Assembly (NCBI RefSeq): GCF_007625155.1
Contig: NZ_VMNK01000005.1
Span: forward strand, 1-64,000
Direction of reading: 5' to 3'
Source: Denitromonas halophila
Lineage (GTDB): Bacteria > Pseudomonadota > Gammaproteobacteria > Burkholderiales > Rhodocyclaceae
Length of the DNA: 64,000 nt
Shown: positions 54,035-59,715 of the stretch, piece by piece
Layout: every line of letters starts with the position of its first letter
Position numbering within the stretch: the stretch's first letter is position 1
The notes under the pieces: generated by a model
The model's input: the letters and a program-made list of their open reading frames with translations, nothing else
Told to the model about the DNA's origin: nothing
Database searches by the model: none
Made by a program: the position numbers and the translations under genes

Positions 54035-54595
54035 ATGAAAGCACTGTTGCTCGCGCTGAGCTTTGCATTGTCCACAGGCGCCGCCTACGCTGGCCCCAAG
54101 GTCGCACTCGAAACCAACAAAGGCCAGATCGTCATCGAACTCGATGACAAGGCGGCACCGGTGACAACCCAGAATTTTCTCAAGTACGTCAATGACGGCT
54201 TCTACAATGGCGTGATCTTTCACCGCGTCATTCCCGGTTTCATGATTCAGGGCGGCGGCTTTGAGCCCGGCATGAAGCAGAAGAGCACCCGCGAGCCCAT
54301 CAAGAACGAAGCCAAGAACGGCCTCAGCAACGTCCCCGGCAGCATCGCCATGGCACGCACCAGCGATCCGCACTCGGCCAGCGCTCAGTTTTTCATCAAC
54401 CTCGTCGACAACAGCAAACTCGACTACCCCTCGTTTGATGGTTGGGGTTACGCCGTATTCGGCAAAGTCGTGGAAGGCATGGACGTGGTCAAAGCCATTG
54501 GCGCCGCACCGACCGGCATCGCTGGCGGTCATCGCGATGTCCCCACGGAGGACATCACCATTCGCAGCGCCCGTGAAATCACCAGCGCCAAATAA
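54035..54595 (+). CDS. ppiA: Periplasmic peptidyl-prolyl cis-trans isomerase A (cyclophilin)
   Basis: 186 residues. A signal peptide ([19 protein letters not shown]) is followed by a cyclophilin domain with [37 protein letters not shown] and [15 protein letters not shown]. It catalyses proline isomerisation during periplasmic folding. It is a close paralogue of the next gene, 28 bases downstream, which lacks the signal peptide. Confidence 0.94.
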
Positions 54596-54623
54596 TTTCA
54601 CCCGAACACGCAAGGAGCATCAC

Positions 54624-55118
54624 ATGGCAGTCAAACTGCACACCAACCACGGCACCATCACCCTCGAACTCGACGCTGAAAAAGCACCCGAGACGGTCAA
54701 GAACTTCCTGGCCTATGTCGAGGCCGGCCACTACAACAACACCATTTTTCACCGTGTGATCGACGGCTTCATGATTCAGGGCGGCGGATTCGAGCCCGGC
54801 ATGAAGCAGAAGCCGACCAACGACCCGGTCAAGAACGAAGCCGACAACGGCCTGAAGAACGACAAAGGCACGATTGCCATGGCGCGCACCCAAGACCCGC
54901 ACTCGGCCTCCGCCCAGTTCTTCATCAACGTGTCCGACAACGACTTCCTGAACCACCGCTCCCCGTCGCCGCAGGGCTGGGGCTACTGTGTCTTCGGCCG
55001 TGTGACCGAAGGCCTGGAGACGGTTGACGCTATCCGCGCGGTCAAGACCGGCTCATCCGGCTTCCACCAGGACGTGCCGACCGAAGACGTCATCATCGAG
55101 CGCGCCGAGATCATTTGA
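54624..55118 (+). CDS. ppiB: Cytoplasmic peptidyl-prolyl cis-trans isomerase B (cyclophilin)
   Basis: 164 residues from ATG 54624 (AAGGAG ribosome site; the frame opens earlier). There is no signal peptide: [22 protein letters not shown]. Cyclophilin core [36 protein letters not shown] and [16 protein letters not shown]. Cytoplasmic proline isomerase. The ppiA-ppiB-lpxH order, often near cysS, is common in proteobacteria. Confidence 0.95.
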
Positions 55119-55126
55119 TCGCGCCC

Positions 55127-55870
55127 ATGAACACACAGGTGGAAGGACCGGTTCTCTTCATTGCCGATCTGCACCTGTGTGCGGCCGAGGCCGCCACGAC
55201 CCGCGCCTTTGAGGCCTTCGTGGCGGGGCCTGCCCGCCAGGCAAAAACGCTGTACATCCTCGGCGATCTCTTCGAGTACTGGGCCGGCGACGACGATCTC
55301 GCCGCCCCGTATCACCGCCACATTGCCGATCTCCTCGCCGAACTGACTAAGGCCGGCACCGAGATCATCTTTGTCGCAGGCAACCGTGACTTCCTGATCG
55401 GGACCGATTTCTGCACCGCCACCGGCATCACGCTGGCCACAGAGCCCGTCACGCTATCCCTGAGTGCTCGCCCGGCAATTCTCTTGCACGGCGACGTCCT
55501 GTGCACCGATGACCACGCCTACCAAGTCTTCCGACAACAAGTCCGAAACCCCGGCTGGCAAGCCACATTTCTCGCCCGCCCGCTCGACGAGCGCCGAGCC
55601 ATTATCGAAAGCATCCGCGCGCAAAGCGAAGCTGGCAAGCAGCAAAAAACGGCCGACATCATGGATATCAACGAATCCGCCGTTGTTTCAGCCTTCCAGA
55701 GCGCCGAATGCGACCTGATGATCCACGGACACACCCACCGCCCGGCCACCCATATTCATTCCGTCAATGGCCGGCCGTGCGAGCGCTGGGTGCTCTCAGA
55801 CTGGCACGGAACCGCACCCTACCTTGCCTGGACGGACGGCGCCCTGACCCGAAAAGAACTGTTCATCTGA
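55127..55870 (+). CDS. lpxH: UDP-2,3-diacylglucosamine diphosphatase
   Basis: 247 residues from ATG 55127 (a TTG at 55115 is possible). It hydrolyses UDP-2,3-diacylglucosamine to lipid X in lipid A synthesis at the inner membrane. Metallophosphoesterase motifs in order: FIADLHL, GDLFEYWAGDDD, GNRDFLIG, LLHGDVLCTDD and IHGHTHRP. It begins eight bases after ppiB. Confidence 0.95.
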   Translation: MNTQVEGPVLFIADLHLCAAEAATTRAFEAFVAGPARQAKTLYILGDLFEYWAGDDDLAAPYHRHIADLLAELTKAGTEIIFVAGNRDFLIGTDFCTATGITLATEPVTLSLSARPAILLHGDVLCTDDHAYQVFRQQVRNPGWQATFLARPLDERRAIIESIRAQSEAGKQQKTADIMDINESAVVSAFQSAECDLMIHGHTHRPATHIHSVNGRPCERWVLSDWHGTAPYLAWTDGALTRKELFI

Positions 55871-55910: not shown

Positions 55911-58900
55911 CTACTTGTAGAATTCCAGCAACTTGTACGGCACCCCCGAGACCAACGGAACATCCGTCACCGTCACCGTATCGCCCTCAACCTCGGCACG
56001 CCCCGACAACACCCCCTTATCCCATGTCCATCGAATCTGTTCGCCATCGCGCAGCTGGAATTGCGCCGGCCGACGCGGCGTCACACGCCGCGGCTGATCG
56101 GGGATTCCTCCGCCAATCTCCTGGCGTTGTACATAACGAAGCGGAAAAACGAGACGCGACGGCGTATCGACAATCCGCGCGTGGTCCCACAACAAGCCCA
56201 TGTTGTAGTGACCGCGCGGGAAGCGCTCTTCGTCAACACGATCCGTTGCCAACAGCGGATAGTTTCCGCTCGAGTGGGTAAACGCCGAATGCGCCCGATC
56301 CAGCGTCACGTCCTGGTCCGGGCTCTCGAAAGCAGAGAGATTCGGCAGTCGAACGCCCTTCTCTGCCGCGTTGTGCCCATCGCGCCCCCATGAAAACGCT
56401 CCGCCGATCCTATGCTGTTCGATCAGGTTCACGAACTCCAATTGGGTATTTCCATCCGGTCCGGCGCTGAATCCATCGTTGCTTGAAAAGGCGTGGCGAT
56501 AATGAATGCCGCGTACTATCGGATCGCTGGCCGCCTGAAGGGCGAAGTCGATACGCTCCCACACCATCTTTGTGCCCCCGGTCGGGCGGCAGGGTGCCAT
56601 ATTGCCCGGGGTTACGCTGGGCGATTCGGCGCGGCATGATCACACCGATGGCTCCTGTCACATAGGCAATCCGCTGGCGCCACGGCGCCGGAAGAATCAT
56701 GCTCTGTATGACCGCCCCGCCACCGCCCATTGAGCCGCCCTTGAGTATGATTCCTTGCCGTTCGGTATCGATCTGCGGATAGCGTGCGACCAGATATTCG
56801 ATCGATCCGGCCAGACGGCGCCCCGGATAGGGCGCGCCATCGGCCCCATAGGCCCACCATTCCCGCCACCGACCGTCGTGGGCTTCGGCATCCTGATTGC
56901 GCAATTCGATCTGCCCCAGCCGTGGCTGTGGCGGAGAAAACGCCTGGTGCATGCCGGCACCACTACCCGCTGACGATCCGTGCAAGTGCACAAACAGTCG
57001 CATCCGCACAGGTACCGGATCGGTTCGCGAATACGCCCACTGAAAGTCGACACCATGCGGATCGAAGTAGTGCTCCGATGCAATATCCCAAACGCCTGGA
57101 AACCATGCCCAGCGTCCGGCAGGCCCACCGCCAGTTTGGGCAGGGTGATCCGGTGCCGTGAGATAGCCCGCCGGTTGCAGTCGCACCACCGCCCCACCGC
57201 CGCCACCCTGACCTGCGCTACTCGTCACCCCGGCCCGCGAGACTGACGTGTTTGAGACAGGCCCATCACCACGAAAGGCCTCGGGTCGGACCCGTGGATC
57301 AAAGAACGCGCCACTATCGATCCAGTCGCGCACCGTCGCCAACTCCGCCGCAGTGACCTTCACATCGGGGTGGCCATTGTTGTAATCGATGTCCTTAAGA
57401 TAGGCATCGTTCGTCTGATAGTCGGCCCGACGCCCCTTGAAATACCAGTACAGCGCCGAGCCAGCAGCATAGTTGCCATTCACGAGCCATGAAACATGTG
57501 GCCTATCGAGCCAGTAGACCGCCTTTTCTGAATAACCTTCAGCGCGCTCATGCACCTGCACCGGCCTTGGATTGGTCTCCTGTTTGTAATCTTTCAGGAT
57601 CATCATCCACGTGCGCACGCCTTGAGGCGCGGTGTGATTACCGAAGTCGATCCCGCCCGCCGGCGCCCGTCCGCTGTGACAGCTCGCGCAACGACGGTTG
57701 AGAATCGGCACAATGTCCGCGTTGTATTCCGGCTGACGCATTAAAGCAAGAAGACGCGTCGGCGAGCGTTTCGCGGCCAGGCTTTCGGAGAAGTCCGGCG
57801 TGGCATCGACATCATTGTGTTGATGGCACCCACCACAGGTCAACACGGTGCCGGGCCGCAAGGACTGCGGCATCATGTCCCGACGGATGACCTCGCGGTC
57901 AGCGTTCAATCCAGACAAGACCCAAGGCACATCGCAGGGAAGCTCGATTTTGGCCGAACCATCCGGCTCGACCGGCGCGTCCCCGAGAATCGCAGCGCGA
58001 TACCCCCACACCGACCACCACTGCCGACCTTCCCCGGCGAAATTGCGCACTCGCTCGGTATTCGGAATCACCTGGGTAATCCGGATGTATTTCACATCGG
58101 CATCTTTGACCCCGACCAGTTCCTTGCCAAACAAGGGCGACAACTCCTGATGCCCCCAGCGGTAGTTGCCATGCAGCACCGGATAGGCCTTCGTCTCAGA
58201 CTGCTGGGATGCGATATGCAAATAGCACTTTCCATCATCTGAGCGCGGCTGTGCCACGTTGTCGGGTGTGGCTTGACCATGCACGTCGATATACGGCCCG
58301 CCGTAAATGGCACCGTATTCAGCCACTCCCGGCCGGTCAATCAAACGCACCGGGTCGCGCAGGTAATCGTCCGACGGAATTTTGTCCGCTGGCAATTTGT
58401 AGATACCGATCTCGATCCCGACTGGATTGACGATATTTGCCGGGCGCCGGTTGGGGTCGGGGCCTTGCTCCACAAAACGGTCATTGCCATCCGGCTTCAG
58501 TCCCATCTGCTTGTTGCACATGCCCTGGCACCACACAAAACCCAAGGCATTACCAGGCAACCCGAACGGATCGCGGATCTTGCCCTTGTAGCGTGCATTG
58601 GAAAAATCGAAATGTGCCTTTTCATCGTTGCCGTTCGCCCAGCTCGCAACATCAAGTAGATCGCGGGGGTTGAGCGCAGCGAAGCGGCCCTTCGCTTCAC
58701 GAACCGGGATTCCCTCGACGGTGAACGGCTTGGGCGACCACAGAAAAATCTTGCCAGCTCCCTGATTATTATTGCCTCGGTAGTACTCCCCCACCGCCAG
58801 CCTGCCGTCCTGGAGCTGGCTGACCCAGTGCAAGGCACGGCCACGATAATGCGCACCGAACGACGACTCCTGAGAGCCGCCCCAAGGATCGGTCGCGCAT

Positions 58901-59715
58901 ATCCACCATTGATTCAGAAGGGTTCCCGGGTAATTGGTGTAAACCGGGCCATAGCCGATATAGGCCAGATCATGGCCCCACTGGGCGCACGAGCCAATCA
59001 ATCGGCCATCCCGAATCTGAGTCGCACCGTAAAAACTGGCCATGTCGTGATAACCCGTCTTGACGACATTCGAGCCATCGAGATCGGCAAAATAGGTCTG
59101 CAGGTTTGCATACCCCTGAACAGACATTCGCGGCAACAATGGCTCGTACTCGCGATCGCGATCCGATGAAAACGTCACCCGCAAACGACCGTTCTGATTC
59201 ACGAATGCCGGCGTCAGGTCATGCTGCCCTGGCTTATAGGGCCAAGTGGTAGTGGTCCCACTGACCAAATCATGAATGGCGACGCTGGCGCCAGACACCC
59301 CCGCCAGCACCCTGTTCCTTGAACCACACACCGGTTCCCACTGACTACCGTGATAAAGCGTGAACGCCACTTTCGTGCCATCAAACGACAGGCGAGGATC
59401 CGTGGGCATACAAATCTTCCCGGCAGCGGCACAGTCGTAGAGAACAGTCACCCGCCCGGTCTTGTCACGGCGCATGAGGCGGCCAGGGCCGCTGATACCG
59501 TTGGGTGCATTGCCGGCGGCCTTCTGGTTGTGCACCCGATTGTTCACTTCCGGTAACGAGATGCATACGTCCGGGTGGTCGAACACCTCCCCCTGGTACT
59601 GCGAAGGCGTGCGATCAATATCGAATTCGACCCAGATCAATGGCGTCGTCGTGTCCTCGTCAGCCAAAGCAATGCTTGCGAGCGCGACTAAAAGCAAAGC
59701 CAGCATCCAGCGCAT
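55911..59715 (-). pseudogene. Exported diheme HZS-alpha-like protein with hydrolase domain, frameshifted
   Basis: Start at the ATG 59713-59715, with a signal peptide (MRWMLALLLVALASIALA). The frame runs about 1,045 residues, then continuity passes to another frame (55911-56600) around the C-run 56575-56579; the reconstructed product is about 1,268 residues. The N-terminal two-thirds is beta-propeller-like and resembles hydrazine synthase alpha-subunit-type domains. Two haem sites are CGGCH (57823-57837) and CASCH (57676-57690). After about residue 870 comes an alpha/beta-hydrolase-like part with nucleophile elbow GGSMGGGG (Ser at 56731-56733). It could be a real lesion, a sequencing error or programmed shifting. 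Function unknown; hydrazine synthesis is not implied. Confidence 0.7.

Follow-up and report, generated by a model that had tools for sequence, protein, structure and literature searches.

The DNA analyzed here, referred to as the window, is a stretch of 64,000 nucleotides of Denitromonas halophila (contig NZ_VMNK01000005.1), and the gene described lies on its minus strand at 55911-59715, coordinates that had been given in the first-pass annotation and are exact, as located by the start and stop codons. The neighbors of the gene are read as UDP-2,3-diacylglucosamine hydrolase-like (lpxH-like, downstream), sulfhydrylase-like, and then purF-like, and the closest loci to the gene are those of D. 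ohlonensis and D. iodatirespirans; these bacteria are denitrifiers. A pair of cyclophilin (peptidyl-prolyl-isomerase-like) genes with a cross-match of ~63% identity is found in tandem at 54035-55118 of the window. The components of the gene are as follows.

59715 to 55911-55913, minus strand: whole gene, from its ATG to the natural stop (translation and open reading frames)
59715 to 56410-56412, minus strand: frame 1, from the ATG to a premature stop past the lesion
ending at 55911, minus strand: frame 2, which continues the same hydrolase to the stop
59662-59715, minus strand: predicted Sec-type signal peptide (MRWMLALLLVALASIALA), read from the translation; its kind is conserved in all homologues
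58099-59661, minus strand: N-terminal region, probably beta-propeller-like (repeats in a distant homologue and a weak profile match)
57820-58098, minus strand: HZS_alpha middle domain PF18582 (Pfam match)
57823-57837, minus strand: first haem c site, CGGCH, equivalent of haem alpha-I (alignment to 5C2V_A)
57676-57690, minus strand: second haem c site, CASCH, equivalent of haem alpha-II (alignment to 5C2V_A)
57184-57296, minus strand: variable Gly/Ser-rich linker (low between-species identity, high dN/dS)
56580-57183, minus strand: alpha/beta-hydrolase domain, first half, in frame 1 (profile)
56722-56739, minus strand: nucleophile elbow GGSMGG, with the Ser codon at 56731-56733 (alignment)
56560-56579, minus strand: frame lesion (net change of -2, or +1, compared with intact genes), adjoining five consecutive G of the coding strand
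55914-56571, minus strand: second half of the hydrolase domain plus a small beta domain at the C-terminus, both in frame 2 (profile and alignment)
56475-56477 and 56373-56375, minus strand: presumed catalytic Asp and His, respectively, in frame 2 (alignment)

The first-pass annotation had proposed that a diheme region resembling the alpha subunit of hydrazine synthase (HZS-alpha) is joined in one exported polypeptide to a hydrolase with a GGSMGG elbow. The fusion is considered real because the gene is intact in a single frame of 1272-1285 codons in four sister species (L002/L021, L003/L022, L005/L020, and L006/L068), and the proposal is borne out by these full-length homologues. In the window, a single hydrolase profile of the intact homologues spans both frames, with positions 4-213 matched in one and positions 200-437 in the other. 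Had the two parts always been separate genes, or had the N-terminal region been unlike HZS-alpha, the proposal would have failed; instead, fused intact homologues exist and the N-terminal profile matches HZS-alpha. In another sister species (G009), only the diheme part is present as a protein of 818 codons without a hydrolase, the downstream neighborhood reads by eye as the same, and the placement of this species in the tree is compatible with either loss of the hydrolase or branching before its gain. The diheme part can therefore work alone. HZS-alpha-like proteins outside anammox bacteria are already known (PMC12758564, PMC10732223); no earlier report of their fusion to a serine hydrolase was found in the searchable literature, which covers few subscription journals, and within that literature the joining of the two is the new element.

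The diheme part matches PF18582 with 44.2 bits against a curated cut-off of 26.6 (E 2.9e-11), and HZS-alpha (5C2V chain A) is the only significant PDB match of an N-terminal family profile built from 11 homologues (E 7.9e-13); a PDB search with the single window protein as query returned chance matches only. In the profile alignment, both CxxCH motifs, CGGCH at 57837 and CASCH at 57690, fall on the haem alpha-I and alpha-II sites of 5C2V_A, which agrees with the two haem sites and the HZS-alpha-like region read earlier from the sequence. A second His just after the first haem site (CGGCHxH) is invariant in the homologues. Asp-Gly repeats and PD40 in a distant homologue, together with a weak profile match to the propeller of acyl-peptide hydrolase (E 0.11), suggest that the N-terminal region is probably beta-propeller-like. 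The AlphaFold2 model of the diheme part is poor (mean pLDDT 29). PF18582 is present in 57 of the 369 sampled genomes of the class, and the Denitromonas proteins form a divergent clade within the family in the tree. The protein is predicted to be exported and to bind haem.

The middle domain, two haem c sites at equal places, and a WIDxG segment near the C-terminus are shared with HZS-alpha (5C2V_A) and its non-anammox homologues (PMC12758564), but the residues characteristic of hydrazine synthase are not. In hydrazine synthase, Tyr591 is the proximal ligand of haem alpha-I and His772 the distal ligand of haem alpha-II (PMC12607021, PMC12758564). The equivalent of Tyr591 is replaced in Denitromonas (CGGCHQHND versus CSGCHYGSY in HZS-alpha) with no Tyr nearby, and at the sequence level no His equivalent to His772 occurs between WIDSGAFFDP and the linker. 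Other non-anammox homologues show equal ligand loss and have been judged not to be hydrazine synthases (PMC12758564). Because both ligands are missing, the diheme part is taken, from its sequence, to be a divergent two-haem protein within PF18582 and not a hydrazine synthase, and hydrazine chemistry is not implied by the similarity to HZS-alpha. That the protein nevertheless serves as the alpha subunit of a hydrazine synthase in a hydrazine-producing organism, as the family-level similarity and the two aligned haem motifs might suggest, is extremely improbable, given the absent ligands, a score of 17.4 bits against the 800-bit cut-off of the NCBIfam equivalog NF052339, and flanks of housekeeping genes in which neither an HZS beta or gamma gene nor a cytochrome gene adjoins the locus. 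The genome yielded no match to PF13447 (hydroxylamine-oxidoreductase-type cytochromes), a search in which the control genomes gave no match either, and a literature search for Denitromonas and hydrazine, with most subscription journals outside its coverage, returned nothing relevant. Plasmid sequences searched by tblastn matched only weakly and only within the diheme region, and the matching records bear SUMF1-family annotations. The Denitromonas protein also differs in its fused C-terminal hydrolase, which is described for no homologue in the literature consulted.

The C-terminal part is classified, from its sequence, as a divergent serine-esterase-like alpha/beta hydrolase. Ser, Asp, and His are invariant and in this order across six hydrolase homologues with identity as low as 27%, and from this order and conservation the Asp and His are presumed to be catalytic, the GxSxG elbow with Ser-Asp-His to form the putative active site, and the domain to be a candidate esterase. 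Around the elbow, the hydrolase profile has a weak match to cutinase/PET-hydrolase structures (E 0.003). The domain resembles PF00756 (esterase D, carbohydrate esterase family 1, and antigen 85) and the cutinase/PET-hydrolase-like proteins in its GxSMGG elbow, the Ser-Asp-His order, and weak profile matches, but it is divergent: no Pfam cut-off, that of PF00756 included, is passed by the Denitromonas domain, whereas a separate relative in another genome (G261, described below) scores 25.3 against the PF00756 Esterase cut-off of 22. It also differs from both groups by the beta domain at its C-terminus and by its diheme partner. The AlphaFold2 model of the hydrolase has a mean pLDDT of 34. Prolyl oligopeptidase/acyl-peptide hydrolase (S9) carries a propeller and then an alpha/beta hydrolase on a single chain, and the Denitromonas chain, with its propeller-like region, has the same order; it differs in that a diheme module lies in between and the profile similarity (E 0.11) covers the propeller only.

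The two parts also meet as separate genes. In G261, G435, and G439, three genomes from a single distant proteobacterial family, an HZS-alpha-like gene is preceded on its own strand, at a distance of 50-60 bp, by a separate gene for a hydrolase relative; the C-terminal half of the protein encoded by that separate gene is related to the Denitromonas hydrolase with 27-28% identity and is found by a Denitromonas-only hydrolase profile at E 1e-17. Both haem motifs are readable in the diheme gene of G261 and G435, and the contig of G439 ends before them. A very long branch separates the diheme proteins of the distant family from those of Denitromonas in the tree. Outside these two groups, this hydrolase was not found in the other sampled genomes except for one fragment in G124, which is not followed by a diheme gene, and the hydrolase is absent from most genomes with PF18582. 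Because it is so rare in the sampled genomes, its meeting HZS-alpha-like genes by chance is unlikely. From gene content, the pairing is taken to be independently supported, as a fusion in Denitromonas and as adjacent genes in the distant family. Other HZS-alpha-like genes of the distant group adjoin alginate-lyase-family (PF05426) genes, an arrangement recorded for diheme genes whose products carry Ig-like tails of the surface-protein kind (L057 and L058 in G261, and L062 in G257). A polysaccharide context is possible for that branch of PF18582; no alginate-lyase-family gene was found in Denitromonas, so such a link does not extend to the locus described here.

DNA identity between the window and D. 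ohlonensis is 91-99% over most of the N-terminal part, falls to ~50-82% from ~57940 to 55780 (~2.2 kb), which is as low as to other species, and partly recovers inside the next gene. The synonymous distance correspondingly rises from 0.36 for the N-terminal part as a whole to 1.3-2.1 for the hydrolase. From this drop in identity and jump in synonymous distance, recombination in one or the other lineage probably exchanged a tract that includes both haem sites together with the linker and the entire hydrolase, and the frame lesion sits within this tract. In the lpxH-like gene (55180-55780), identity to D. ohlonensis is 0.95, then 0.74, and then 0.96, as if the tract were patchy.

One clean frame break had been described at 56575-56579 with coding-like sequence on both sides. 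The net frame change is confirmed, and the gene is the only broken open reading frame among ~50 in the window comparable with D. ohlonensis, the other multi-frame matches in that comparison being paralogues. The break does lie near the run at 56575-56579, but its exact site is not fixed there: the window is 2 bases short relative to D. ohlonensis just after the G run, and, because D. iodatirespirans likewise has five G at the run, the change can be placed only to ~56560-56579. The gene and its immediate flanks contain 11 runs of at least five C or G and the window contains 73, so many that a lesion beside one is unremarkable. No RNA structure beyond that of shuffled sequences was detected at the break. 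The coding character of both sides is evident from dN/dS values of 0.07-0.17 on each side against the three nearest species. Because purifying selection persists on both sides, the lesion is judged to be a very recent event or an isolated error and not old decay; decay of the 3′ part is rejected in view of the dN/dS values, as selection is not relaxed after the break. Because the lesion falls between the codon of the catalytic Ser and those of the presumed Asp and His, the esterase should be dead in this genome if the lesion is real. A later frame break is seen in the gene of a fifth sister species (G001); it is not counted as a second independent lesion, as 5 of 49 comparable genes in that assembly lie in two frames, and frameshifts in this assembly (L084-L087) are not to be read as biology.

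A sequencing or assembly error, with the gene in truth intact as in the sister species, would account for a constraint after the break equal to that of the intact gene (synonymous/nonsynonymous branch changes of 20/21 in the window and 21/22 in D. ohlonensis) and for the G run adjoining the break. The ~50 comparable open reading frames without another break, however, indicate a low error rate, and a run of five G is short, with 73 such runs in the window causing no trouble; an error is consequently a possibility of some weight but not the expected explanation. Phase variation at the G run, toggling the esterase half, could draw on the differing run lengths among species (5, 7, 5, 6, and interrupted), but a tract of five bases is short for a slipped-strand mechanism, the sister genes have not retained the run, and every well-assembled sister copy is in frame. 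The long simple-sequence tract kept in relatives that marks a phase-variable gene is absent from the locus, which has five G only, and the phase variation raised in the first-pass annotation is accordingly highly improbable.

We moderately favor an exported two-module diheme/esterase protein with both modules acting on the same target, which bears a recent indel in this genome. A single exported chain would comprise the signal peptide, the propeller-like region, the PF18582 diheme module, a flexible linker, and the serine-esterase-like hydrolase with its beta domain. The esterase would cleave an ester on an exported target, and the diheme module would perform or supply a redox step acting on that substrate or on the product; both the substrate and the order of events are conjectural. 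The target may be an acylated polymer, proposed on the thin basis that distant diheme relatives adjoin polysaccharide-lyase genes. The copy in this genome would have been split by a small indel of very recent origin (an assembly error being the less likely cause), which leaves the esterase dead and the diheme part intact. Redox coupling itself is rather doubtful, and so is the reading in which the HZS-alpha-like diheme centre and the serine esterase take successive steps on a single substrate or the haem gates the esterase. The main rival to a coupled mechanism is a fusion of convenience, in which the diheme part is an electron-transfer or scaffold domain, the esterase is independent, and the two are joined for co-export only. 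Such a fusion is consistent with the long variable linker, the retention of the diheme part only in G009, and the mostly stand-alone PF18582 proteins, but it fits poorly with a very rare hydrolase being paired with an HZS-alpha-like gene in two lineages that lie far apart, by fusion in one and by adjacency in the other, and is considered somewhat unlikely.

In PMC12758564 and PMC10732223, the HZS-alpha-like proteins of non-anammox bacteria are given no established function. A partner that recurs, either fused or as a neighboring gene, provides a concrete lead to a testable activity, esterase plus haem redox, for PF18582, and the pairing is relevant to the question of what hydrazine synthase did in its ancestral forms. 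Elsewhere in the family, several gammaproteobacterial PF18582 proteins (L027-L037) carry three CxxCH motifs and not two, and one genome of the same order (G051) has four HZS-alpha-like diheme genes (L060, L061, L016, and L017) with open reading frames of ~1000-1800 aa and long Ig-like repeat tails.
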